In this document: positions 900 through 53,826 of the stretch, in pieces
How the letters are laid out: every line of letters starts with the position of its first letter
Position numbering within the stretch: the stretch's first letter is position 1
NCBI GenBank assembly: GCA_942159475.1
Contig: OW804097.1
Span: forward strand, 56,564,986 to 56,628,985
From: Sthenelais limicola
Lineage: Eukaryota; Annelida; Polychaeta; Phyllodocida; Sigalionidae
Reading direction: 5' to 3'
DNA: 64,000 bases
Program-made: the position numbers and the translations under genes
Notes under the pieces: model-generated
Seen by the model: only the letters and a program-made list of their open reading frames with translations
Databases searched by the model: none
What the model was told of the DNA's origin: nothing

Positions 900-921
900 T
901 AAAAACACCTGCTACAATTGA

Positions 922-1830
922 ACCACTAATTTCACCGAAGAGAATATTGAAAAGGCGTATAGGGTAGGAAAACAGAGAGGGAAAATTCCCCCAAAACTCG
1001 TGGTCAAATTGATCAGCGTTGGAGATAAGGAGTTCTTATTGCGTGAACAGCCTGTATTACAAGACAAGAGACATTTTCCAACAGACAAATTCGCCTATCT
1101 AAAATTTGTGAAAATCAACCAAATATTACCACCGGCCGTACAGCAAAAACGAAGTCTTATCCGACAAATGGCTAAGAGAGCCAACAAAGTTACCCAGTTC
1201 AAAGCACAGGCAAAGGGAGATAAACTCATAGTTGACGACAAGATCTTCTCTCAAAGCATGCTTGAATATGTTCCGGACATTATCCATCCATCAAGCACCA
1301 AAATAATCCCGGTAAAAGATGGGTATGCCTTTCAGAGCGAAAAGGCGTTTTTGTCCAATTTCTATAAGTGCAACATCAAATACAACGAAGACGACTACTG
1401 CCATGTCGAACAAGCATATCAAGCCAAAAAGGCTGAATTTTTCGACAAAGACCGAATTGCTTCACGAATCAGAGCAACCAGAGACCCACAAGAGTGTAAA
1501 CGCATTGGTGAGATGATTCTGGACACAAAACACCCTAAATACCAGTACTGGTTGAAAGAACGGGACAGAATTCTTGAAACTCTCGTGAGAATAAAGTTTA
1601 TGGATAATCCCAATCTGAGATGCCAACTCATTGGAATGGGAAGATGCTTATTAGTCGAAGCAACTCACGATAAGCACTTTCGCAGTGGCTGTATCCTGGG
1701 AAGCAAGCGCCTGAACGATGGTTCATGGGATGGCGAGAACGTATTGGGCAATATACTCGAACGTATACGAGATGAATGCTATAGAAAGCATCCATTGGAT
1801 GTACCAATCCTCCTTGCAACCTCCACGTAG
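922..1830 (+). CDS. LINE ORF1 fragment: ORF1p-like region fused to NADAR domain
   Basis: One uninterrupted frame of about 300 codons, open from the codon after a TGA at 919-921 to TAG at 1828-1830; no credible ATG marks the start. The first ~125 residues resemble the RRM and C-terminal domain of LINE-1-type ORF1p: IEKAYRVG, then PPKLVVKL..V.DKEFLL, a K/R-rich helix, and GDKLIVDDKIF. From about codon 1324 to 1780 follows a NADAR domain: FLSNFY, HVEQAYQAKKA, DPQECKRIG, KERDRILE, IKFMDNPNL, LLVEATHD and GENVLGNILERIR, about 150 residues, the usual family length. Known NADAR enzymes remove ADP-ribose from guanine in nucleic acid or split N-glycosidic bonds of early riboflavin intermediates. ORF1p normally coats element RNA as a chaperone. 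The activity of this fusion is inferred, not shown. A further tail lies in another frame (1803-2252). Confidence 0.8.
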   Translation, partial: TTNFTEENIEKAYRVGKQRGKIPPKLVVKLISVGDKEFLLREQPVLQDKRHFPTDKFAYLKFVKINQILPPAVQQKRSLIRQMAKRANKVTQFKAQAKGDKLIVDDKIFSQSMLEYVPDIIHPSSTKIIPVKDGYAFQSEKAFLSNFYKCNIKYNEDDYCHVEQAYQAKKAEFFDKDRIASRIRATRDPQECKRIGEMILDTKHPKYQYWLKERDRILETLVRIKFMDNPNLRCQLIGMGRCLLVEATHDKHFRSGCILGSKRLNDGSWDGENVLGNILERIRDECYRKHPLDVPILLATST

Positions 1831-2252
1831 ATCACAACCGTTTCAAGTACAATCGACAACACAACTCCCCATCGAATAACAGATGCATCAATATTGGTAC
1901 TGATGCTGGCCTGATAAGACCAGAAACCCAAAAGGAGATGGGAGAAGAAGGAGAAACAACCATGGTACCAGCACCTCCAGCAAGGGATGGGATGAATGAA
2001 TACGCTGCAAATGGATACGATGATACAAATTCTAGAACAGAATCCCCCATGCCTTCGCCAGTGGTAAATGGTAATACGGACAGGATATTCGCAAAAGAAC
2101 TTGATACCCAACAGATGTCGACACCGGCTGAAAGAGTCACAAAAACACCCAAATACAGGATAAAGACCAGAAGCACATTAGAAGAATCATACAGATCTAT
2201 GAAGAATAATTCTACCAGGAGCTCGAAGCTAGATAAACTCCTGATATGTTAA
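1803..2252 (+). pseudogene. Shifted-frame low-complexity tail of LINE ORF1
   Basis: Frame 3 is open from before the ORF1 stop to TAA at 2250-2252 and overlaps the end of the NADAR frame. The roughly 150 residues are polar and low in complexity, rich in N, S, T, R, E and P, as expected of a disordered linker or tail. I infer that a small indel near 1800-1828 moved the end of ORF1 out of frame. It could also be a separate small ORF, since an internal ATG is at 1938, or chance. No known domain. Confidence 0.4.
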
Positions 2253-2580
2253 GGTAATTCGGACATATGAGTAACAAATCGTGCTCCCAAATGACTCCTA
2301 CATGACTCAAGTATTTCAGTCCCCATGAATAAGTGTCTTCTCTCATTTATTTCTTTTTTTATATGTATGTGCCTAAAAAGTTCTCAAAACAATTGTGCAA
2401 AACGATATGCAATACAAAATATCTGGTGGTCAGTCATTTCTTTGCTCATTACATACTAAGGTATGTCGTCCCAATGGGATATTGTATTGGATTTACTGTC
2501 AGTATTGTATATCACCGCTGTTTTTAATTCTTGTGATAGCAAAACGCATTTGAAAATGATACCCCTGTTCTTCAAAGACT
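2253..2580 (+). other. Spacer between LINE ORF1 and endonuclease ORF
   Basis: About 330 bases without a convincing domain, between the ORF1 tail and the endonuclease ORF. It contains a T-rich stretch near 2341-2365. It may be inter-ORF sequence of the LINE or the eroded start of ORF2. Confidence 0.4.
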
Positions 2581-3297
2581 ATGGCTAAGAATTCAGTGAA
2601 AAAAATGGGTTGCTCGATAATCAGCTTCAATGTGAGAAGCCTCAACAGTCATCTAAACGAGGTACATGTATCGCTACTTGATAAGGGAGAAACAATAATA
2701 GCTCTCAATGAAACCTGGTTAAAAGCTTGTGATCGAGATATATATTTGTCACATAAGGACTATAGTCTAATCAGAAACGACCGGGTAATTGAAGGTACCC
2801 CGATGAGGGGAGGTGGTCTGGCTGTCTATCACAACAGCTCAGTCGTTATTGACAAACACAGATTTGAATATCTAAATTGTTGTAATAAAGATATCGAATG
2901 TCAGCTGCTAATGTGTAAATACCGAATGTATGGGAAATTTCTCTTAGTAAACTCCTATCGTCCCCCAGCGGGATTGTTGGATGAGTTCATGATTCAGATT
3001 AACAAAATGCTGGATATGATAAGAGTTAAAAAACTCAGAGTGGTTTTTCTAGGTGATATGAATATTGACATGGTGAAAAGAAGCCCACAAAAAAGAATAT
3101 TATCTGATACGATGAACAGAAGTGGTCTAAGATTACAAAACAAATCATTCACTAGGATAACTGATAGAGGCCAGACACAGATCGACCTTATCTTTAGTAA
3201 CCTTGATATGACAGATTGTGATAGTATGAATATAAACATATCCGATCATCTCCCAGTGAAAGGATTCATATACCAGAAAAAGAGAGTAAGATCTTAA
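2581..3297 (+). CDS. LINE ORF2, APE-like endonuclease domain
   Basis: A 238-residue open frame starting at ATG 2581 that forms a complete apurinic-type endonuclease (exonuclease/endonuclease/phosphatase fold). This domain nicks target DNA to prime reverse transcription. Expected catalytic and metal-binding residues are visible: N17 in SFNVRS, E44 in NETW, Y126 in NSYRPP, D159 and N161 in GDMNID, D202 in QIDLIFS, and D222-H223 in the terminal SDH motif. GGGLAVY at about 77-83 is also typical. The frame ends soon after SDH, whereas in the intact LINE of this window EN runs into RT. The likely cause is a one-base indel near the A-rich stretch at about 3275-3285, because frame 3 continues the protein without a gap. 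Confidence 0.88.
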   Translation: MAKNSVKKMGCSIISFNVRSLNSHLNEVHVSLLDKGETIIALNETWLKACDRDIYLSHKDYSLIRNDRVIEGTPMRGGGLAVYHNSSVVIDKHRFEYLNCCNKDIECQLLMCKYRMYGKFLLVNSYRPPAGLLDEFMIQINKMLDMIRVKKLRVVFLGDMNIDMVKRSPQKRILSDTMNRSGLRLQNKSFTRITDRGQTQIDLIFSNLDMTDCDSMNINISDHLPVKGFIYQKKRVRS

Positions 3298-3685
3298 CAA
3301 ACAACAGGTCTGTTGATGATATCTGGTCTGATTTCCATAAAATCCTAGAAAAAGCAGACAAGAAATCTTTCAAGGTAATTCGTAGACGAAAAAACTCAGA
3401 TATTTCCTATGTGTTCGAAGAAGCTTATAATTTAATTAAAGTTAGAGATGAGGCATTCAAGCTAGCCAGAGTGACAAGATCATATGAAGATCATTTAGAG
3501 GCCAAAGCATTGCGAAAAAGGGTAAAACAATTGTTACTTCGGGAACGACAACAATTTCTAGTCGATAAGGTTAACGAGAACAAAGGCAACCCTAGGAAAT
3601 TTTGGGAGCACTTGGGAGCTATATATAGTAACAAAGATTCTAAAGATAAGGGTATCTTGGAAAACTTTAAAACAGAGAATGGTAC
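3282..3685 (+). pseudogene. LINE ORF2, EN-RT linker fragment
   Basis: Frame 3 stays open from the frameshift behind the endonuclease to the insertion point at 3685. About 130 residues are basic and helical. The motif NPRKFWEHL matches NPKKFWEIL at residues 379-387 of the intact 976-residue LINE protein further right, which places it between EN and RT. The fragment stops where the foreign insert begins, after ENGT. There is no catalytic motif here. Confidence 0.75.
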
Positions 3686-5829
3686 CCCGACAGGCACTGA
3701 GTGCAATTGAGTGTTATAGCAATGCGATCATTTTGTGATTGACCGCAAACTAGTGAAGTGTGATAATTATGGCTATGAATAACAGTGAAATGGACATGCC
3801 ATTAGCCATCATTATGTGAAATCCATTGCGTCTATTTCCTCCTATGTTGGTGGTGGTGTCACACTTGTGTTGGATTAAGTTCTCATTGATATTCATTTAT
3901 GTTTATATTAAACATATGTTACTCAACCAATTGTATCTGTGAATACATGTTTTCTTCAAAAGTTAATAATATGGGTGTGATCTCAATTGCACTAATCATG
4001 CGCATTCATTATTGCACCTAAATACTCATAATGCAGCCACTACTGAGTACTGGACGCAACACTTGACACTGTTCACTCGCCTGGCATTCACACCCACTGA
4101 TGCTCAACTGAAACTCCGTTCTCTGACTCATGTACTCATTCTCTGACACCAAGTCAGTTACGCGCTAACGACGCTAACCCATGCCTTCTACTAGTGAGAT
4201 CAGAATTATGCATATGGTTGAATTCCTTATTTCCTCAGCTTTCAGTAGATATAAAGTGTGTGCATGTTAAAGAATATTTAATATGATAGAGTAGTTACCA
4301 AAGATAATAATTTATTTCTTTTGCTGAAGAATAATAAGGACTAAAACTAAACTATTTGATAAGTAAAACTACATAAAGGCATACGTACGGCCTATGTAAC
4401 AATATATCTTGGATATTCGTGCAATAAGGACTTTTAAGAATTGTAAATTACAATCTTCATTATGCAAATAATCCTTACATCAAGCAGTTATTCTACTGTA
4501 CATTCCCAATGGTAAAACATATAATTTACATCTTACAGTTCAATTCTGCATAATCGCAATGTAAAGAAGGCTGTAACAAATAAATGGTATTTTTAATTAA
4601 TTCAACAATAGTCAATAGTGTTGTCACCCAGATATTATATTTAGCATAATATAAGTTCCCAGAGCTTCCTTAACAGTGCGTGAAAATGCACCACAAAACT
4701 ACCGTCAAGTAACTAGGCTAATTTAAGCTACCCATTATACTATACTATGAAACCCCACGCCGACATACAATACAATGTTATGCCTGTTAATGTTTTGGCG
4801 AATAAAGCGCCGCAATTTTTGCCGCACTTAACCGATCGTCGCTCATTTATTAATGCAGATATCGAAATACCATTTATACCATGAGTAAGCTGAGAAAAGT
4901 AGCTTGACAACCATGTCAATAGTCTTTTTGTAAAGTGATTGTAACTATCAATTTGATTGAGTTGAAATGAACATAAAAATTCGCGCAAAGTGACGGGAGT
5001 AGCGCAACTGTCAAACACAGAGGAGCGGTGGTATGGTAATGCTACTGTAATTAACACACCTCTCCCTCCCTATATTTTAGAAACACCTCTAACACTAGAG
5101 GGCGTTACAAGCAAGCGAGTCATAATTAATAATCTTTCTATGTTAAAAGCACTACCCATGTAATATTGTGACATTTATGCACTATTGGAACTAACCATCA
5201 TATATCTTGAATTGTTTTCCGTGATATTCTTCTATATTTTATATGTGTAATCATTTGTGTGATATTGTAGAGGGTGTATACTCAAAACACCCTCTATCAT
5301 TTACATCTGCATATATAGTGTACCTCCAGTGGGTCGATAAACTCGACAACCCACAACCTACAATGAACAGGGAGAGAATGATGTACCCACACTCATGTGG
5401 ACACTCTCTGTAGGCAAAATGATGAATAAATGTATGTCTTTCTAAAGGATACCAGTGGTTATATTCAATTGCTGGGTTTCCTTAGCAACACTAATTGGAT
5501 GATCACTCAATCTGAGTTCATTAAAGGTTATCAGAACTTGATAAAAATTGACTGAATATTAGATACTTAAATATGCATTTTGATGTGCTAATAACATACA
5601 GTAAGCTATTGATCAATTGATATAAGGAATCGATTGTATACAAATATTCCGCTGGAAATGCCATAAGAAATGCCAATTTTTGCGTCAATATTGCGTTATA
5701 CCCTTAGTGCGACCATCTCACGATCATTGCGCAATAATTATTGCATGAAAAGCGTCCACGCTCATCACAGAACTATGGCGAGATGATTGCGCATTAAAAA
5801 TCGCGCAGAATCGCGCTCATTTGCCCGTC
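3686..5829. mobile_element. 2.1-kb inverted-repeat insertion in the LINE
   Basis: This 2144-base block interrupts the RT. The target is GGTAC on the left (3681-3685) and GGAAC on the right (5830-5834), an imperfect 5-bp duplication. Removing the block with one copy brings the two RT frames back in register. The ends are imperfect inverted repeats: CCCGACAGGCACTGAG on the left and, read from the other strand, GACGGGCAAATGAGCG on the right. Subterminal GCGCAAT/ATTGCGC motifs recur near the right end (about 5690-5800). No transposase was recognised inside, so it is probably a non-autonomous DNA transposon. The superfamily is not assigned. Confidence 0.6.
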
Positions 5830-6333
5830 GGAACAGTATCTGGTATGGACGCAATAAATTATGCAAACAATTATTTTGCAGGAATAGGTGAGGGTGATGT
5901 AGATCTGTTTTGATTCGATGGGAAAATATATGGAGAATTAGATATTACACAAAGTGTACAGGAATCGGAGGTATTGAGACTGGTGAAGGACTTAAAAGAT
6001 TCAAAATCATCTGGTATTGAAAAAATAAACAATAGTACTATTAAAATGGCCATTGTTTCAGCAATTGGTTTTTTTACTAGACTCATTAATCTGATTCTCA
6101 GGAATGGTACTTTTCCCCTTGCTTGGAAAAAATCGCCAATTGTTCTAATCCCAAAAAATGGTGATACGAAAAGAATTGAAAATGTAAGAGCGATCACATT
6201 GGTAGCTTCAACCAGCAAGATACTAGAGCGAATTGTTTATACCAGGCTTTACGATCATGTTGAAACTAACAATATACTGTACAAACACCAATATGGTTTC
6301 CGCACTGAGAAATCTACTAACGATGCCATATAA
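5830..6333 (+). pseudogene. LINE reverse transcriptase, N-terminal part, broken
   Basis: RT coding resumes directly after the insert with an AINYANNYFAGIG segment, which matches AANLANNFFGGIG of the third LINE at about 51.6 kb. An in-frame TGA lies at 5911-5913. Further on are KSSGIEKI, FPLAWKKSPIVLIPK, LVASTSKILERIVY and HQYGFRTEKST, the early RT finger motifs. The frame ends with TAA at 6331-6333, where coding moves to the next frame. Confidence 0.8.
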
Positions 6334-7466
6334 TGTTACTATCAGAGTTATATAATGCAACGAATATGGGTCAATTGGCTAGTGTTGTTTATTTTGATGT
6401 CAGCAAAGCCTTTAATTCGGTTAATCACTGCTTGTTATTGGGAAAATTACATCATATGGGTATGAGTAGGCTGTCACTAGAATTGATGTCTAGTTTCTTG
6501 TTGAACAGGAAGCAATACATAAGATCGAATTGTGGCCTCAGTAAGGAATGTAATATAGCTGCAGGCGCACCCCAAGGCAGCATATTAGGCCCATTAATGT
6601 TCATTTTGTTCATAAATAATCTATCGGATATTGGCTTGAATGGAAAATTAATAATATACGCGGATGATCTGGCCTTAATTTCGAGTGACGAGAATCCTGA
6701 AAATTTACGAGTAAAAACACAAGAGGATATTAATAAATATCTACAATGGTGTGATAGTAATATGCTTCTGGTTAATAATAAAAAAACCAAAGCACAATTG
6801 TTCGGTCGCTTTGGGAGAAATCAAAATGAACCAATACTGTACTGCAATGGTAGCCGGATAGAAAGGGTATACACTTTTAAATACCTGGGGTGTAATATCG
6901 AAGAGAAATTAACGTTGAACCAGCATTTGTCAAATATAATAAAAACAGTATATTGGAAGCTTGGTGAGCTACAACGTAGGCGACGATATATGTCTCCAGA
7001 GATATGTATTTTGATATTCAAAACTTATATTCTGCCTGTTTGTGAATACGCTTGTGCTTTTTTCGGTCCAACGAATCTGGGCTTGGTTGGCAAACTTAAC
7101 AGGTCATGTAGGTACGCAATAAGAATAGCACACGGTCAACAAATTAATGTGGATATGAAAATGAAAGATTGTAATATTTTACCTCTGGAATATAGAAGGA
7201 AAGCTACCATGCTGTCATTAGTTCACAAACACTATATAGAATCCTTTGCAATGAACAGAGAGTTAGGTCTGCGAAATGATATTGCCCCGAATCTGCTATT
7301 ACCAAGACCCAATTCCGAACGATTTAAAAGATCAATTGTCTACAATGGTAAGCGAGAATGGAATGTACTGGCACCCAAATTCAAAACAATTGTTGATTAT
7401 AGAGCGTTGAAACGAGCACTTATGAACAGCTATAGAGAATTGTTTGTTGTACACCATGATAATTGA
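6333..7466 (+). pseudogene. LINE reverse transcriptase, catalytic and C-terminal part
   Basis: A 377-codon open frame containing the RT palm. The first catalytic aspartate is D22 in VVYFDVSKAF, followed by GAPQGSILGPLMF and then the YADD box at residues 109-112, which supplies the other two aspartates. After these come the thumb and the C-terminal region typical of LINE RTs: KYLGCNIEEKLT, LPVCEYACAFF and KREWNVLAPKF. The ATG at 6333 is not a real start; it lies at a frameshift from the upstream piece. The C-terminal part is complete to TGA at 7464-7466. It is related to the RT at 51.6-53.3 kb. Confidence 0.85.
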
Positions 7467-9480
7467 TAGATTTCTTTTAGCCTTGCCCGACCTTTTATCC
7501 TCGCGGTGAGATAGCGAAACGAATTGTATGTTTAAATTAGACCAATCTAATCCTATATGTCTGATGATATGATAACGTGTGATGACTCAACAATAAGAGA
7601 ATGCGTTGAGTATTCGAATATCGTTTAAGAAATTAGATAGACGATTTGTAGTAATGGTAGTATTTTATAATTTAAATTACTCCATTTTTGTTTCATGACT
7701 TCAGCAATTGACTTTATGACACAACATGTACCATCAATTTCAGATTTTGTAGTTACCTACTGCAAGGGCAACGCATGAAAAATAACTGCGCTGTCAGTCA
7801 TGCGTATTTGATCATTAAAATGCTTTATTATTTGTTAAATGTGTAGGCCAATAAAAATATTTAAAAAAAAAGAAAAATGTACCTATGGTGCACGTTGTCT
7901 CCCCTAGAAGAAATTTTACAAAATGGCTCTGTCAACGTTTTATTTGGTTGGAGCAGATGAAAACACTGTCCGCAGTTTATTAATTCTTCACGTCAAGTAT
8001 TGAAAGGTAACAAGAAGGGATATAAGATAATAAACTTCGATTTCATTGTCATAGTGAGTGGTTAGAAACTTCGACAACTCTCCACAAACTACCGCAACCC
8101 TAGCCGCCCTGTTCGAATCGAGTCCTAGGCAAAGCCCTGTATATGGCTAACAAAACTGCTATTATTATAGAGTAGTGGCAGGGTATATATAACTAAGTAT
8201 CGTTGTATAGAAGATAGAAAGTCATATTAAGATTAATGTGCGGTATGTATACAGATTATATTCCAAAGAATGAGACTAATCGCATATCTGTGAAACTAGC
8301 TTAGCTAGGGGTGTTTTAAGGTTTAAACACAAAGTCTTTTCAATCTGGAGTTAATTGAATGAAATCTTTATTCCCTTTGGGTTCCAATTTACTATGATGT
8401 ACTCCCATAGTCCTCCCCAAAGAATGAAAATAGAACAGGAAATTGTGGTGTCTGGGTTCCAGTAGAAGATCCATTTAACCAAATGTTCCTTTGAAATCAG
8501 TAGAGAAGTAATTGAAAGATAACTATTATTTCTACCATCTCGCTCATAATTATTTCAAGTATATCAGGTATTCTTATTCACCATAAACTTGTTTGAGAAC
8601 CATTACTGATCTTACTTCTTCACCGGACTTATTATTCTGATGGTAAAACCAAATGAAAATAATTAAAAATAGTAATAACAAATAATACTAGTTTTCCAAC
8701 TCTGCATACAAATGGGCCCTTCAAAATGATCATGCACCAGGTATTACGCTTAGATAACTTGGTGTTGACTTTGCTTTCTGGCAGAAAAACATGTGAAAGA
8801 CATGTGATTTGCCATCCTTATGGTTTCATCTCGTGCTATATAAAGTAAATCCATTGCTTTCTTGTGTCCATGCAAATCCCCTATTCAAATGGACAAAACA
8901 GCTTCTCAATACCACCACACTCAGTGTTACTCTGACAGGCAGGCCGACAGGGGTATTCGTCAGTTAATATCGGCATGAATACCTACTTTTTAACACCCTT
9001 TATGTCTTAATGGGCTCTGAATATATTTTTCTTGAATGAGAGGAACAAGAGTATCTTATGATGCCTTAATGAACACATTCAGACCGCTCCTGTGATGGAT
9101 TCAGATTGAATGCATCGAGGAAAAATATCCTCGTCTAGCTATAGATGATAGTTTTGTGAACTGCTAAATTATGGATAAAGAGGCTATGGTAGAAACGGGA
9201 GTATAGTAGACGTTTCTGGACTAGACTCGAGGTAAAATGTTAAATTATTGCTTTGTAGAAAAAGGAACTAATTAACGATCAGGTGGGATGTATTGGTGTA
9301 GTAAGCTGCCGTCCATAATATTCTTAATGTCAAATAAGTAACTTCTACCTGCGAACATTAGATTACTATTGTAAATTGAATGTAAACAACTTGAAATATA
9401 ATCTGAAGACAATATAACTTTAACAAAAGATAAGTTGAAAAATGTCTTCAAATAAACGATCAACTCCTGTAGTTTGCTGT
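7467..9480. other. LINE 3' UTR, then non-coding DNA
   Basis: Bases 7467 to about 7877 are the LINE 3' UTR and A-rich end. From there to 9480 no gene is supported. A GTTCGAATC box near 8114 resembles a pol III B box, but a matching tRNA or SINE body could not be confirmed. Confidence 0.4.
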
Positions 9481-42596: not shown

Positions 42597-45500
42597 ATTC
42601 AATTCAATTCAATTCAATTCAAAGCATTTTTTATTTATACGAGAGGTGTACAAAAAGGAGACCCGTATCTGAAAGGTAACTTCCAGGTCTTCCAGCGGGT
42701 TCCTGACTAGTTGCTACCAGAAAAAATTTTAAATTTACATTAATATGTCCAAAATAAACTTTAGGGCTAAAGTCTAATATCTAATCTAGGAGTATTTAGT
42801 TGAAGCTAAAGTGAGAAGTAGTTCATAGCCATTGAGACAGAGACAATAAACTTCATCTAGCTAACAGATAATACAATCTATCTAAAGCAGTTTAATAGAT
42901 TCATCAGTAGTAGAGACGAATAAAAATAAGGTATAGCAGTAGGATCAGTAATAATGGTAGGTCCAGACCAAGCAGCACAAAACACTCATGAAAATACACA
43001 CATACAAAGAAGCCACAGTATAGCGTGGTCTACAACACATCAATTTCACTTAAATATATATCAATAATTTTGATGAATGATTTTCGGTCCTGTACCTGGT
43101 GAGCAGCAGTTTCAAGGGAGTTCCAGTATTTGGCTGATTTATAAGTAAATGAGTTTAAAGTTTTTTTGAATTTTGGTTGTAATAATTTTAAATTTCTCCT
43201 GCCTTTAACATGACTTCTAGTTGATAGTATTCTATTATCTAAATGGTTTTCATCATTAGCCATGAAGTGGCTTAAATTTATTATATGTTTTTGTCTTCTT
43301 TTATCTAGATGTAACAAATTTAGATCCAAGTGTTCTTGATCTACGTTAGATCGTTTTGCTTTTCCAAAAATAATACGAAGTGCCGAATTTTGTAAAGACT
43401 GGAGCTTACCAAGTAATATTTTTGGTCCAGAGTCATACAGATAGTCACCAAAATCAAAATGCGGAAGAATAGTCATTTTATACAGATCTTTTTTACTCTT
43501 CTCTGTCAGACAGTGTCTTACTTTATACAATAAACGTAGTTTTGTATTTACTTTGGTTCTGATGTTGTTTATATGTTCTTTGAAGGAGAGGTTTGTATCC
43601 ATTATTAGTCCAAGATATTTGTATTCATTCACTGATTGCAGGTTGTTACTCCCCAGTTTCAAATTTCCTATCTCTGTTTTTATTTTTCTGTTTAAAATCG
43701 AGAAATGCATCACATTACTTTTTGAAGCGTTTATAGATATTTTATTTAATCTACACCAAACATCAATCCTGTCGAGGTCGTGTTGGAGGTTCTTGTTTAC
43801 TATTGAAATATCCCCATCATGGTAGTACAAAATAGTGTCGTCTGCATAGTGCTGTACTGTACATTTTTCCACCACCATGTTTAGGTCATTAATGTAAATA
43901 GAGAATAAGACTGGACCCAGGATTGTACCTTGTGGTACACCATATGTAATTATGCCGTCAATTGATTCCAAATTATTGACTTTTACCATTTGTTTACGGT
44001 TGGTTAGGTAGTTTCTAAACCATATTAATTCAGTGTTGGTAATACCATATTGTTGTAATTTCAGCAATAGCCTATCATGGTTCACAGTGTCAAAAGCTTT
44101 TTTGAAGTCTAAGAAGACTGTGCCATTTAAAGATTTATCATTTAGACTTTGATATACTTCATTCATAAAGTCAATGTGAGCATGTTGAACTGATCTCTCT
44201 TTTCTGAATCCATATTGTTTATCATAGAACAGATCATTTTCTTCAAAATAGGTTGAAAGTTGTTGTTGAACAATTTTTTCTAGAATTTTAGCCACTAGGT
44301 TAATACTTGAAATTGGTCTATAGTTATTAGTGTCATTCCTTGCCCCTGTTTTAAAAAGGGGGGTTACATTTGATTTTTTAAAAATGTCTGGTATATCACC
44401 ATTTTTCAATGACAGGTTAACTAAGTAACACATCTGTAAAGAAAGAGCTTTTAGACATGATTTAAGAATGGACGTTGGTAGATCTGAGAATCCTGAGGAC
44501 TTGTTATTTTTAAATCCAGAAACAATTTTCCTTAAGTTCTCGGGAGTTACCTCCGTAAACTTGAAACATATACCTTCATGCATTTCTTGTATCCTCATGA
44601 AAACTTTTTCATCATTCATATTTTTAATGACAAGATCAGTATTGGGTGGATCTTTAATTTTTGCTGCAAGGCCCGGACCAACATTTAGAAAGAAAGAATT
44701 AAATTCAGAGGCTACCTGAGATGATTCCACGCTCGTACCTTCTTTTTCGAGATCAATTTTGTTATTTACGGATATTTTTCCTGGATTTATTAGTGGTTTC
44801 AAAATTTCCCAGAATTTTTTTGGGTTTGCTTCATTAATTTGTAGCTGTTCCTTAATAAATTTGGCTTTAGCTTTTTTACATTTATAATTAGCCTCATTTC
44901 TCATTAGTTTTGCCTGAGTTAGAATATCGTGGTTGTCATCCCTCCTAGCCTTACTGAACAGATAATCCCTCCTGTTCATTAAAGTAATTAGTTCTTCAGT
45001 TGCCCATTTCGGTTTTCTTTTTACCTCTTTAAACTCCTGAAGGGGGCACATCCTATCCAGGAAATGTGTTATTTTACCATGTATAATTTTCCAACATTCT
45101 GACACGTCAGTTTGATTGAAATACAATTCCCAGTCTGAGTCCACTAATATTTGATTCAAAATTTTTTGGTCCAGGGACTTTTTATTTCTTGCCCAAAAAG
45201 TTCTAGTGTCATTCCTATTTCTTTGTTTTTTCCTTATTGCAAAGATGGGGAAGTGATCTGAAATGTTAATATCAATGATCCCAGCTGAATTTAGAATATT
45301 TGAGTTTGAGTATATGTGGTCTATAATAGTGTTAGATCTTAAAGTTGATCTTGTTGGCTCACTAATATATTGAGTTAATTGAAACCTATGTACCATATCC
45401 CTGTAGTTTGATGAGATTGCAGATTTGGCATTTTTGAGTATATTTATATCCATATTCAGATCTCCTAAGATTATGATTTCCTTCTCAGTATCTAGTGATT

Positions 45501-46000
45501 GAAGTATTTCACTCATGGTGTCAATGAAATTCTGCAGGACGCCACTGGGTGGACGATAAGTATTTAACAGTATTATTTCTTTGGAATATTTGTTTTTGAT
45601 TAGAAGTATTTGAACTTCAATATCTTCATTTGACCTATTCAATTTACAGTAACTGTCTTGATCTGTGATGTGGTTCACATGTGAATAAATACACAACCCA
45701 CCACCTCTTTTTTTCCTCTTTCTATCCTGTCGAAATAGATTATATTTACTAATTGTAACTTGGTTATCATGAGTGTTATTATTTAGCCATGTCTCTGACA
45801 GGCAGAGAAAATCAACTGACTCATCCGACATTAATATTTGGATTTGTTCATAGTTTGGAAGGATGCTTCTGATATTCCATGCAACGAAATTAACCCCCTT
45901 CAGGGCTTTTAATTCTTTAAAATTGGACAAACGAACATTCTGGGCCTTTATGTCTACCATTCACCCACTATACAATTATATGAGTGTGGTAAATGACTTC
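42597..46000 (-). mobile_element. LINE with intact ORF2 (CR1/L2/Jockey group)
   Basis: A minus-strand non-LTR retrotransposon: ORF2 at 45960-43030, then about 400 bases of 3' UTR ending ATAAATAAAAAATGC and a tail of five GAATT-type 5-bp repeats (42597-42622). Such short tandem tails replace poly-A in CR1/L2-like LINEs. No ORF1 was found upstream of 45960, so the copy is either 5'-truncated near 46.0 kb or has an unrecognised leader up to about 46.7 kb. The target duplication was not resolved. Confidence 0.88.
43030..45960 (-). CDS. LINE ORF2 polyprotein: APE endonuclease plus reverse transcriptase
   Basis: An unbroken frame of 976 residues from ATG at 45960. Residues about 24-245 are an APE endonuclease with N29 (WNIRS), E56 (SETW), Y135 (NTYRPP), D167 and N169 (GDLNMD), D214 (IIDHIYS) and D235-H236 (SDHFP). 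A basic linker with NPKKFWEIL (379-387) follows. The RT runs from about 480 to 730: YRPISSINLVAKILE, QYGFRKERS, D618 in FLDFKKAF, GVPQGTILGP and YADD at 705-708, so all three catalytic aspartates are present. The C-terminal part (about 770-976) carries YKYLGLIMD, LPHFDFGDYLY and SAKYWNSL. The protein nicks target DNA and copies the element RNA there. No stop or frameshift is seen, so this may be a recent copy capable of ORF2 function. Confidence 0.95.
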   Translation of the reverse strand: MVDIKAQNVRLSNFKELKALKGVNFVAWNIRSILPNYEQIQILMSDESVDFLCLSETWLNNNTHDNQVTISKYNLFRQDRKRKKRGGGLCIYSHVNHITDQDSYCKLNRSNEDIEVQILLIKNKYSKEIILLNTYRPPSGVLQNFIDTMSEILQSLDTEKEIIILGDLNMDINILKNAKSAISSNYRDMVHRFQLTQYISEPTRSTLRSNTIIDHIYSNSNILNSAGIIDINISDHFPIFAIRKKQRNRNDTRTFWARNKKSLDQKILNQILVDSDWELYFNQTDVSECWKIIHGKITHFLDRMCPLQEFKEVKRKPKWATEELITLMNRRDYLFSKARRDDNHDILTQAKLMRNEANYKCKKAKAKFIKEQLQINEANPKKFWEILKPLINPGKISVNNKIDLEKEGTSVESSQVASEFNSFFLNVGPGLAAKIKDPPNTDLVIKNMNDEKVFMRIQEMHEGICFKFTEVTPENLRKIVSGFKNNKSSGFSDLPTSILKSCLKALSLQMCYLVNLSLKNGDIPDIFKKSNVTPLFKTGARNDTNNYRPISSINLVAKILEKIVQQQLSTYFEENDLFYDKQYGFRKERSVQHAHIDFMNEVYQSLNDKSLNGTVFLDFKKAFDTVNHDRLLLKLQQYGITNTELIWFRNYLTNRKQMVKVNNLESIDGIITYGVPQGTILGPVLFSIYINDLNMVVEKCTVQHYADDTILYYHDGDISIVNKNLQHDLDRIDVWCRLNKISINASKSNVMHFSILNRKIKTEIGNLKLGSNNLQSVNEYKYLGLIMDTNLSFKEHINNIRTKVNTKLRLLYKVRHCLTEKSKKDLYKMTILPHFDFGDYLYDSGPKILLGKLQSLQNSALRIIFGKAKRSNVDQEHLDLNLLHLDKRRQKHIINLSHFMANDENHLDNRILSTRSHVKGRRNLKLLQPKFKKTLNSFTYKSAKYWNSLETAAHQVQDRKSFIKIIDIYLSEIDVL

Positions 46001-49995: not shown

Positions 49996-51545
49996 GGAAG
50001 TGGAAACACATAGGAAAAGTAAGACTATATCTTATATTTATCGACTTCACCCCTGTTCTCCTTCCCTAATAGAGGAGTTGCATTATTCACTGTGTATGTC
50101 TATTAAAGAGCATGCTGGGATGGATTCAATTCAAATCCAGCATATACATCTTTAGTAACATTTTTATAGACAATTGCAAGGATCTTTCACCAATATCATA
50201 TGTAAATGATTTATAAAAAACAAATGCATGACGGGAAAGATGGAGTCATATGTTTTTTGGAAACATTTAAAACACATGGATATTTGCATAAGATCACAGT
50301 TACATATTCCATGCTGCACATAACATTTTCTATATCTTATAGAGTGACATACAACTCCCCTAATTCCATGCGAATCAATATTCAAGATGGCGGAAATGCA
50401 AATCCCCTCTTGAACCAGATTTCATAGATTTGGGTAACCCTGTCCATATAAACTAGAATAAGGAACGATTCCAAACTTCGTACATATTTGCCACCTAAAC
50501 ATCACAAATCATGACAGCATACTTTTCAACTGCCTTAAACTAAAACCAGTGACTCCTCCCCATTTATCCACATTCTCCCTCTTTAAACCAAGCAACCCGT
50601 GGTATGACATCACAAAAACACATCCATTACCCTGGCCTCATGCTTAGAATAATCCACCTCACACACAGCCATATGATACATCAGTGTATGGTAAAGTATG
50701 CATATTTGTTTACAAGATGGATCATGCCTTGGCTCCACAGGTCATGCCATGCCTCTCTTTGCTCTATGAATTGCAAGCTATTTGCTTTATAGTGTCTGCC
50801 TGTCCCATTGTGATTGATGGCTGACTCCAGTTGTAAAGTCTATCAATGTTTTCTTGTGGGAAACTTTTTGAAGATGGACTCCATGTGGCCCATAGGGTGA
50901 GTAAACATTTTTCCCGTTTTTGCTCCGTCTTTTCCATTGTTATATATGATGTTTGTATGTTCCATCTAAGTTGTCTCAAAGTCAAGGGTGATATAAGTAT
51001 TAGTGATCCTATAGAGTAATATTTAGTAAACTCTTCAAGTATCTATACAAATCAAGGGGACATCTCTTTTACGATTTTAGGATTTCTTATGGTTCTATAG
51101 CTGGTTTAGGGGGATGTAACCTATCCTAGAATAATAGTGAATTTAGTATTAATTCATTCTTTATTTAGTTATTCACAGTGATTCATATCATAGCTTAATA
51201 CCATCTTTATTGTGATTTACCCATATTTAGTTCCCAGGAACAACTTCAGTTTCATCTGACATGGCTTGTTGGACAAGGCAGTCCATAAGAGATAGATGTG
51301 CTGGTAACCGTACCAGAAATAAAATACTGAGGTTGCACGTTCAAGTCCATTGTGGAAAAGGCAAATGTTTGTTCTAGGGCCAATGCTAAGGCTGTTTACT
51401 TTACTGATACCTCATAATTATGGCTGCAGTTCTCCTGACAATACCGACGATGTTGGTTTTTGTGTGGGTTTATGTCCATGTCAGATTTTGTCATGTCACC
51501 CACTGTAATATCTGAAACAGTGTATGAATAATTTAACTTTAGAGT
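49996..51545. other. Non-coding
   Basis: No gene recognised. Around 51300-51365 a CACGTTCAAGTCC box resembles a pol III B box, but an A box and SINE tail could not be confirmed. Confidence 0.3.
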
Positions 51546-53826
51546 GTATATGACACACAAACTATCTCTATCAGATTGTCATTTATAAGGGATAGCACCG
51601 GTATCAAACTTTTTGGAATCGATGCTGCTAATCTAGCCAATAATTTCTTTGGAGGTATTGGTAGTGAGAACTCAGATGCCCGAATAGTCTATAATAATCT
51701 TCCAAGTGTTAGTCACTTTGAGTGGAACGATCCCATTTCTAATAGAGATCTACATGACTCCATTTCTGACACTGACTTCACTAAATCTTCTTGTGTCGAG
51801 GGGATACGCTCAAATATCATAAAGAAGTTTATTGAAGCCGATGAGACTAACATTCTTGTACTTTTTAATGGTATCAAGACCACCGGTGTTTATCCCCAAC
51901 AGTGGAAGGATGGTCTGTGTACTCTCTTGCCGAAAAATAAAAATAGTCGAAAAGTGAATGATCTTAGACCAATTGTGTGTACTCCAATAGTGAGCAAACT
52001 GCTTGAGAAGATTATTGTCAAAAAGCTTTATGCCTACTTAGAAGAAAACAATTTGTTATCGAATATCCAACATGGCTTTCGACAGGGGTGTGGAACAGAT
52101 ACTGCTCTGAAAAAAGTTATAGATGATATTATGTACTATAAGGATCATTCAGTAAACTGTGCTGTCATCTTTTTAGACGTAGCAAAAGCGTTCAACAGCG
52201 TAAATATTCGTCTATTACTTAAAAAACTAAAGAACTTAGGTCTTGATGACTTGACATTAAAATTACTATCCTCATACTGTATTGACAGAACACAGCGCAC
52301 TACTTTTAATGGATTTATATCGGATCCTTATATTATGAAGGCAGGTGTGGCTCAGGGGAGCATTTTGGGCCCATTAATGTTTATTATCTATATGAATGAT
52401 TTGTATAATGTTAGATTTCATGGAAGGGTTACTTTATATGCTGATGATTGTGCTATCTGTATGCCTATTATTAGTAAGGACTCTTTTTCGTTGTTACAAC
52501 AAGATCTTAACTCGTTCAAAAACTGGGCGGATATCAACTTCCTAAAAGTAAACGAAAATAAAAGTAAGATCCTTATTTTTAGGAGTACGGTTGAAAATTA
52601 CATAAAGAAACCTGTACCCGTTTATATGAATGGTAGAGAGGTTGAATATGTGGATGAATTCCAATATCTTGGCCTATGGCTAAACTCATCGTTATCCATG
52701 ACAAAACAGTTAAATATTAACTATGGGATGGCGAGTAATTACCTGTGTCGTATGGTCAAAGCAAAACACCTACTAATAAGGAGAACATCACTTATGGTCT
52801 ACAAAACATTTATTCTACCAATAATTGAGAGAGGGTGTATTTTTACCGATTTAGCTCCTAAAACGAATTATATTCGTATGCAGAAGCTACAGAATAAAGC
52901 CCTGTGTATAATATATGGTAGAAGAACCGCTAGAAATAATTTGTTTAATTTACATATCACCAGTAAGTTACTCCCTATCTCGAAGCGAAAAGAAATAAGA
53001 TTCTTATGTTTGTTACCCAGATGCAGTGAATTTATCAACATAGATCACGGCCATAATCTGAGAAATGGTAGTAGAAGACATATAAAAGAATACAACTGGA
53101 AAAAGACCAGGTTGAGTAGAAGTTTTTTGGCCAAAGGAATTAATGCATGGAATAGGCTACCTGAGGTCATACGAACTGACATGAACCAAAAAAGCCTAAA
53201 ATCTAGGGTGAAACATCTGTACCTAACTGAGTTTAGGAGGTCTGGAGTGGTGTCTTAACACTATCCAAAAAAACAGAAAAAGTGTGAGAAAATCGTGTAA
53301 TGGTGTTTTTTGAGATGGTATAATATTGTAGTTATAGGTTGCTTTTTTTCTTTGAAACTACATGTTGTATAGTGATCATTGTGTCATCAACAATAGAGTC
53401 TTGTCAGAACGAGTTATGAGTATAATCAGTAAGCCCACGATTATTAATGGTTACTCTGTAAGAGCACGACGTCTGTTTCTTTTCTTTGTTTTTTTTTCTT
53501 GAAGAACTCTGTAAATAATAACTGTTTTTAACACTCCCCGTCCCTTGAGACTGTGAAATGTATTTTACTCATGTATATGCCTTTATCCTCATATAATAAT
53601 TGATTAAATTTCTAAATATTGTAGACTAGTGTAATCATATCAGAAGTATCTATGTTACTACTATTGTAAATGTGCTGACATCTATTCTATTTTTCTTAAA
53701 ACGAGTGAATGTATAAAATCTAAATCTTTTTCTATTATTTAAATCAGGCTGTCCTGAGAATATTCATGCTCATTTGTGTGGAAATGTAATTGACCTGAAT
53801 AAAATATTTTCTAAATCTAAAAATCT
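51546..53826 (+). mobile_element. 5'-truncated LINE with intact reverse transcriptase
   Basis: The copy starts shortly before the RT (a stop lies at 51540-51542, and no endonuclease is found upstream) and ends with AATAAAATATTTTCTAAATC at about 53799-53826. 5' truncation is usual for target-primed reverse transcription. The 3' UTR is about 560 bases. The RT is related to that of the NADAR-bearing LINE at the left end, but the 3' UTRs are not alike. Confidence 0.82.
51576..53258 (+). CDS. LINE reverse transcriptase, N-terminally truncated
   Basis: An unbroken frame of 560 codons, open at its 5' end (the first codon here, TTG, is not a true start). It begins in the EN-RT linker (AANLANNFFGGIG at about 17-29). 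RT motifs follow: LRPIVCTPIVSKLLEKI at about 130-146, QHGFRQGCGTDTAL, D201 in FLDVAKAF, GVAQGSILGPLMF and YADD at 288-291. The C-terminal region contains FQYLGLWLNSS, LPIIERGCIF and INAWNRLPEVIR. Every catalytic aspartate is present. Without an endonuclease the protein could not start insertion by itself. Absence of stops suggests a young insertion. Confidence 0.9.
   Translation: MSFIRDSTGIKLFGIDAANLANNFFGGIGSENSDARIVYNNLPSVSHFEWNDPISNRDLHDSISDTDFTKSSCVEGIRSNIIKKFIEADETNILVLFNGIKTTGVYPQQWKDGLCTLLPKNKNSRKVNDLRPIVCTPIVSKLLEKIIVKKLYAYLEENNLLSNIQHGFRQGCGTDTALKKVIDDIMYYKDHSVNCAVIFLDVAKAFNSVNIRLLLKKLKNLGLDDLTLKLLSSYCIDRTQRTTFNGFISDPYIMKAGVAQGSILGPLMFIIYMNDLYNVRFHGRVTLYADDCAICMPIISKDSFSLLQQDLNSFKNWADINFLKVNENKSKILIFRSTVENYIKKPVPVYMNGREVEYVDEFQYLGLWLNSSLSMTKQLNINYGMASNYLCRMVKAKHLLIRRTSLMVYKTFILPIIERGCIFTDLAPKTNYIRMQKLQNKALCIIYGRRTARNNLFNLHITSKLLPISKRKEIRFLCLLPRCSEFINIDHGHNLRNGSRRHIKEYNWKKTRLSRSFLAKGINAWNRLPEVIRTDMNQKSLKSRVKHLYLTEFRRSGVVS

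Follow-up and report, generated by a model that had tools for sequence, protein, structure and literature searches.

NADAR-like domains have been described in ORF1 of several Tx1 LINE families of the oyster Crassostrea gigas and in Pol of Ectocarpus Gypsy LTR elements, with RNA processing as the suggested role (PMC12477816, published in 2025). Among the matches listed in our literature search, whose scope left out subscription papers and Repbase, this was the only report of NADAR in retroelements. The word NADAR is absent from the main text of a survey of 448 Jockey-superfamily ORF1s (PMC4120745) and from that of a study of bivalve LINEs (PMC10294476), and no NADAR appears in the available text of work on gastropod non-LTR elements (PMC11203168). 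Esterases are another kind of enzyme described in such elements, occurring in CR1, RTEX, and Penelope-like elements (PMC3905857) and constituting the Type IV ORF1 of CR1 and L2 (PMC3905857, PMC4120745).

As far as the available text of the biochemical literature goes, it is the N-glycosidic linkage to a base that characterized NADARs cleave (PMC11543638, PMC11125620). Hydrolysis of guanine-ADP-ribose is documented for NADARs, among them one from a eukaryote (PMC11543638); every tested E. coli and phage NADAR was active, and what eukaryotic NADARs do beyond riboflavin metabolism is described as open (PMC11125620). Residue K95 of the E. coli C7 NADAR is essential for efficient guanine-ADP-ribose hydrolysis, although K95R is active in vitro, and K50 of the Phytophthora nicotianae enzyme has been equated with it; guanine-specific DNA ADP-ribosyltransferases are known from shellfish and butterflies (CARP-1 and the pierisins; PMC11543638).

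We analyzed a 64,000-nt stretch of the annelid Sthenelais limicola (hereafter, the window). A sequence-only reading had reported a continuous frame joining an L1-type ORF1p part to a NADAR domain, followed by the endonuclease and reverse transcriptase (RT) of the same LINE. The frame (922–1830, plus strand) is indeed stop-free over 302 amino acids, and its residues 139–285 (1336–1776) match Pfam PF08719 at 89.9 bits (cut-off 35.1; E = 2.8e-25). The fusion is thus confirmed, but the frame is only a remnant of ORF1, truncated at the 5' side and frameshifted in its tail, with both the natural start and the C-terminus absent; the longest ORF1 frames of its relatives reach 577–690 amino acids. Similarity to longer copies begins at about 918, which leaves the window ORF1 without its coiled coil and the first part of the RRM. 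What precedes NADAR is a truncated RRM-like part and a CTD-like alpha-beta-beta-beta-alpha part (922–1275). The stop at 1830 is due to a frameshift, and the tail continues in another frame of 155 amino acids (1785–2252, plus strand) that resembles the ORF1 tail of a related locus, L032, ending in SKLDKLL.

The whole copy spans 918–7877 on the plus strand and ends in an A-rich tail (7863–7877). Its nearest relative, L031, aligns by blastn over 918–3289, 3287–3685, and 5830–7861 at 97% identity, whereas L032 and L033 show 81%–84% and 72%–74% identity over most of the same span. These alignments bear out the claim that the endonuclease and RT lie downstream on the same strand and belong to the same LINE. 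ORF2 begins with an APE-type endonuclease (2560–3297; Exo_endo_phos, 1.1e-6) and passes into a linker region in another frame (3225–3710, aligned to L031 and L032 at about 3284–3685); about 90 bases are missing near 3287 relative to L031, with a change of frame. A foreign insert of about 2.1 kb (about 3686–5829), unaligned in all three comparisons with L031–L033, splits ORF2. The end part of this insert (5616–5831) recurs at 480–705 of another locus, L036, in the plus sense of its LINE and at 79% identity. The RT follows at 5914–7466 in two overlapping plus-strand frames, of which 6321–7466 matches RVT_1 at 1.7e-21 and 5914–6333 at 1.3e-5, under the Pfam cut-off; it pairs with L032 in the ORF2 tree (97/95). 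Although the copy keeps the catalytic E, K, and E (positions 163, 170, and 246), its residue 254 is R rather than the G of 37 of 39 LINE rows, and the copy is therefore probably dead. Against L031, its NADAR has a dN/dS of 0.57 (dN 0.019, dS 0.032; small numbers), the level expected of decaying copies. The window copy is probably a dead fossil member of a large NADAR-LINE lineage.

We searched the genome (1.13 Gb in 161 contigs) for that lineage. With a threshold of E = 1e-3, the fusion query gave at least 131 matches, at least 99 of which span both the RRM–CTD part and NADAR (a count of query ranges). Pfam NADAR yielded at least 5,561 loose candidates; all of the best 150, which were scored, exceeded the cut-off, and 148 were stop-free inside the match. 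From the fusion matches, 20 loci of 8 kb were picked for diversity and long frames, and both ORFs were open in 12 (ORF1 of 579–679 amino acids, ORF2 of 948–1014), these being intact multicopy ORF1–NADAR–endonuclease–RT elements of the kind that the sequence-only reading had proposed to look for. Exo_endo_phos and RVT_1 were both over cut-off in the four open ORF2s scanned, placing endonuclease and RT in one ORF2. Relatives share an ORF1 order of basic N-terminus, probable coiled coil, RRM-like plus CTD-like part, NADAR, and variable tail. The elements show non-LTR traits, being dispersed, multicopy, and 5'-truncated, with A-rich 3' ends in five of six copies viewed (the exception being L031); L031 and L032 have a common 5' end and different flanks. 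At the ends tried, three loci had no target-site duplication of 8 bases or more, and one A-rich 7-mer was seen in L038. Collectively, this is a large, deeply diversified non-LTR lineage whose ORF1 ends in a variable tail after a probable coiled coil, an RRM/CTD-like part, and NADAR, and whose ORF2 encodes endonuclease and RT.

NADAR is not always part of a LINE: three of the best 150 places lie in 162-amino-acid frames. One stand-alone frame (L053; G000:C1:94854554–94857179, minus strand) sits beside another (FHGCYFHGHKC) that we take to be type-B DNA polymerase-like, which suggests a Polinton/Maverick-like element also carrying NADAR; the others are at C1:89380390 and C1:66983187. In another locus, L050, a second and very different ORF1 with NADAR (5918–7765, plus strand; 1.7e-16) lies downstream of the locus's own ORF1 and endonuclease, apparently one NADAR-LINE nested in or adjoining another.

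Copies of the LINE lacking NADAR would have spoken for a chance insertion. We therefore queried the genome with the coiled coil and RRM–CTD part, without NADAR, and obtained 139 matches; 106 were used, 33 short fragments being left out. These were compared against 89 of the 131 fusion matches (41 of the 42 left out were lower-scoring places, and by eye none fell at an unmatched place). A NADAR match lay directly downstream for 75 of the 106. The other 31, which had no listed NADAR, comprised five partial matches, which may be without the domain, and 26 low-identity places; one of these 26 (L058) does have NADAR at 4.5e-28, as does L050 from the same identity class. Among the loci that were read, a set that excludes the other 25 low-identity places, there was no long ORF1 frame of the NADAR-LINE kind without NADAR. 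The fusion instead recurs across many divergent families, and in several of them both ORFs are open.

The kinship of the part preceding NADAR with ORF1p is likely at the level of anatomy, in the order probable coiled coil, RRM-like, CTD-like; in sequence the similarity is weak. A profile of the RRM/CTD part from 13 families, searched against 177,635 PDB sequences, had LINE-1 ORF1p as its top two matches (2w7a, E = 0.1; 2ykp, E = 0.4), which are suggestive of kinship and fall short of significance. In the AlphaFold2 model of the window protein, the CTD is a helix, three strands, and a helix (pLDDT 78–93), and the blocks of the truncated RRM have pLDDT 54–66. The RRM/CTD-like assignment is likely, given this predicted secondary structure and the best PDB matches of the profile. 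The Pfam search that had been proposed for the frame came out in favor of NADAR only: no model, RRM and Tnp_22 included, was over cut-off in the RRM/CTD-like part, and matches of the coiled-coil region to coiled-coil families were all below cut-off. L1 ORF1p was absent from the Foldseek and VIA matches of the window model, in which the RRM is truncated. Searches with full-length ORF1 found no protein match at E = 1e-3, either with one sequence (7,990 scored candidates) or with 14 families (7,993 scored candidates).

The NADAR domain is far better defined. PF08719 was found in all 11 further ORF1s scanned, ten at 90–112 bits and the second ORF1 of L050 at 61.3, and the predicted structure has the YbiA/ADP-ribose-binding fold. 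We aligned 39 ORF1 rows: 43 loci whose frame fitted the pattern and reached 430 amino acids or more, together with the window ORF1 and minus rows contained in another (loci with shorter frames and L050, which the pattern missed, lie outside the set). Of the catalytic set, K193, K225, E246, and N273 are present in all 39 rows and E163 in 37; position 170 is K in 37 and R in two. The two rows with E163K, L019 and L031, are likely decayed copies. The active-site stretch with E163 and K170 lies at 1408–1431 of the window (plus strand). By alignment and hand counting, K170 maps to K50 of the P. nicotianae enzyme (8bau), and through this mapping E163 and K170 correspond to E88 and K95 of the E. coli C7 NADAR. 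In the active-site check suggested by the sequence-only reading, E163, K/R170, and E246 come out as conserved on a predicted YbiA fold. The last-strand catalytic residue is a Glu of YbiA type and not the Asp of DarT1-linked NADARs. We considered K193 (equivalent to K115 of DarT1-linked NADARs) as a specificity marker and dropped it, because 30 of 37 other NADARs also have K there. Across 14 divergent ORF1s (859 columns, L051 excluded), all 21 invariant columns lie in NADAR or, by a single residue, directly in front of the start that Pfam gives it. With an active site so nearly unchanged across the family, the retrotransposons probably need the domain.

NADAR is under strong purifying constraint, comparable to that on ORF2. 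We compared copies of different subfamilies in four pairs, with dS of 0.44–2.15, near or beyond saturation, so that absolute dN/dS values are rough. For L043/L044, dN/dS was 0.044 in NADAR (95% bootstrap range for NADAR, here and below, 0.014–0.084), 0.024 in RRM–CTD, 0.065 in the N-terminal part, 0.309 in the tail, and 0.066 in ORF2. The corresponding values were 0.043 (0.018–0.077), 0.024, 0.040, and 0.292 for L034/L035; 0.045 (0.018–0.081), 0.027, 0.041, and 0.317 for L027/L034; and 0.015 (0.002–0.037), 0.025, 0.057 (32 codons), and 0.188 for L031/L032. L034 is common to two of these comparisons, and L031 carries E163K. The selection analysis that had been called for therefore places NADAR at 0.015–0.045 and the tail at 0.188–0.317, and dN alone separates them as well (0.032–0.049 vs. 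0.082–0.241). NADAR is not the slowest part, as RRM–CTD lies below it in three of the four comparisons (0.024–0.027). NADAR dS fell within 0.05–1.2 for 41 of 741 possible pairs, which are non-independent, the rest being saturated or near-identical. Median dN/dS was 0.045 for NADAR and 0.309 for the tail in the 13 pairs with NADAR dS of 0.8–1.2, and 0.107 (28 pairs) and 0.364 (22 pairs), respectively, at dS of 0.05–0.15.

In a midpoint-rooted tree of 60 NADARs, the 22 LINE rows fall together (97/88), and the NADAR of L053 lies outside them with four stand-alone NADARs. For 17 elements, the trees built from NADAR and from ORF2 have 10 of 14 splits in common, and the only conflict with support above 80 on both sides concerns how three long-branched families branch relative to one another. 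This agreement fits, as far as trees of these sampled sequences can tell, a domain that was captured once and then inherited along with the element. The LINE group also includes a protein from outside this assembly, P0001. An alignment search with the NADAR domain returned 41 proteins, and among the seven inspected, only P0001 has a LINE-like RRM–CTD part. P0001 is 277 amino acids long with the order RRM–CTD–NADAR as in the LINE ORF1 (27% identity, 6e-27 for a single comparison), and has K where the others have the last-strand catalytic E246. It comes from a 5.2-Mb contig (ENA) of another assembly, possibly even of the same species; in the genome studied here, the contigs other than the nine long ones total only 4.1 Mb. 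No relatives of P0001 were confirmed in viral or prokaryote contigs.

The clade of these LINEs can be approached through the RT. The motif G(V/I)PQGSx(L/I)GP occurs in 13 of 16 ORF2 frames longer than 650 amino acids (one has LAP, two are of another form) and differs from the same segment of L1 (gtrqgcplspllf) and R2 (gvkqgdpmspllf) in PDB alignments. GVPQGSxLGP is characteristic of the Jockey superfamily (CR1, L2, Jockey), and elements of L1/Tx1 type have the motif seen in L1, Tx1 being part of the L1 superclade. The motif of the NADAR-LINEs resembles the Jockey-superfamily type, a lead by which they may stand nearer to that superfamily than to L1/Tx1. Two more LINE sequences occur in the window. 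An uninterrupted 976-amino-acid endonuclease–RT ORF2 (43030–45960, minus strand) forms a group of four with the divergent NADAR-LINE ORF2s of L055–L057 (100/100); directly upstream, that copy has no ORF1-like frame of at least 70 amino acids. A 571-amino-acid RT frame of a truncated LINE (51543–53258, plus strand) groups with the NADAR-LINE families L047/L048 (100/99).

Some families have an extra ORF. In L051/L055, L052/L056, and L054/L057, a separate frame of 216–313 amino acids lies between ORF1–NADAR and ORF2 (L055, 3110–4048, minus strand; L056, 3372–4100, minus strand; L057, 14–661, plus strand), with DSRG, GIC, and DGxH blocks invariant in three divergent families. SGNH hydrolases have blocks with Ser, Gly/Asn-Asp, and Asp-x-x-His, and by motif the extra ORF of L055–L057 is presumably SGNH hydrolase-like. 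It had no Pfam match over cut-off, and one of the three, searched against the PDB, had no relevant match. In window-type elements (L032–L035), only 209–438 bases separate the frame of ORF1 from that of ORF2, leaving no space for it.

What might the domain do? Building on the fusion, the conservation, the selection, and the predicted fold, which are the documented steps, our leading though still tentative reading is an active hydrolase tethered to the ribonucleoprotein (RNP) that frees bases of ADP-ribose and thereby protects mobilization. NADAR would act as an N-glycosidase/ADP-ribosyl hydrolase, the coiled coil and RRM/CTD would hold it on element RNA and cDNA, and during reverse transcription it would strip ADP-ribose from bases of element nucleic acid or of target DNA, shielding mobilization from host nucleic-acid ADP-ribosylation. 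The putative linkage is guanine N2, the best candidate because NADARs, one of them eukaryotic, cleave it and because CARP-1 and the pierisins exist. The more specific version, in which ORF1p erases ADP-ribose put on element RNA, cDNA, or target DNA by a host guanine-specific ADP-ribosyltransferase of CARP-1/pierisin type, is possible but doubtful. If true, nucleic-acid ADP-ribosylation would be a eukaryotic anti-transposon defense countered by the transposon. Many NADARs fused to a presumed RNA-coating protein, with catalytic residues under selection, make this lineage a place to seek reversible nucleic-acid ADP-ribosylation in eukaryotes.

The conserved residues are compatible in principle with any NADAR chemistry, small molecules included. 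A catalytic NADAR could act on small molecules derived from NAD (RNA-repair by-products, or ADP-ribose signals in cyclic or phosphorylated form) and blunt a host alarm, much as soluble ADP-ribose derivatives have been posited as targets of viral, above all phage, NADARs (PMC9503650, available text); we think this unlikely, as the fusion to an RRM/CTD-like part in the aligned families speaks for a substrate that sits on the RNP or close to it. That the domain is a noncatalytic structural or ligand-binding module (for ADP-ribose, an NAD cap, or RNA) aiding RNP assembly, akin to the nucleotide-binding packaging aid of the sequence-only reading, is improbable. It has a parallel in SNA-3, whose three NADAR domains include a first one without conservation of the YbiA-critical residues and which is required for nematode trans-splicing (PMC9303266, available text), but one would then expect some of the invariant residues, E163, K/R170, and E246 among them, to have been lost from the 14 divergent families, which retain them; catalytic conservation together with purifying selection favors an enzyme. 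That the domain frees proteins (host factors, or ORF1p/ORF2p) of ADP-ribose, and not nucleic acid, is distinctly improbable: macromolecular ADP-ribose has been proposed as the target of eukaryotic RNA-virus NADARs, in parallel with protein-acting macrodomains (PMC9503650), yet the base-linkage activities described in the available text of PMC11543638 and PMC11125620 include no protein substrate. A chance passenger, in the form of a YbiA-like housekeeping N-glycosidase acting on riboflavin intermediates, is very improbable; that activity is known in bacterial and plant NADARs (PMC11543638), but there is no evident cause for lasting selection on it in a mobile element, at a level comparable to ORF2. 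A one-off landing of a host or bacterial NADAR gene in a LINE copy, or a gene-model artifact, might be imagined from the window, where the sole NADAR-bearing copy noticed is broken. It is refuted, with next to no probability left, by the multicopy fusion in divergent families with open ORF1–NADAR frames, by the matches across both parts, and by the NADARs downstream from most RRM-part matches and in L058.

Several known systems resemble this lineage in part. The P. nicotianae NADAR (8bau) and E. coli YbiA (2b3w) lie outside any mobile-element ORF1. The Type II ORF1 of CR1, L2, and L1 (PMC4120745, available text) has the order of coiled coil, RRM-like, and CTD-like parts that is likely here too, but in the NADAR-LINEs the CTD-like part is succeeded by an enzyme domain. 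The Type IV esterase ORF1 likewise places an enzyme on the ORF1 side of a LINE, but its fold and chemistry are unrelated to NADAR, and the SGNH-like protein found here has its own ORF between ORF1 and ORF2. The Ectocarpus Gypsy elements are retroelements with NADAR too, but of LTR type and with the domain in Pol rather than in an RNA-binding ORF1p (PMC12477816). The closest counterparts are the C. gigas LINEs, which likewise have an ORF1 with a YbiA-family NADAR and correct the statement of the sequence-only reading that it knew of no such LINE clade; they are filed as Tx1, whereas the RT motif here is unlike that of L1, a comparison made with the oyster set by description only (PMC12477816, available text). 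If the Jockey placement is right, the oyster NADARs represent a second capture or elements that were filed differently.
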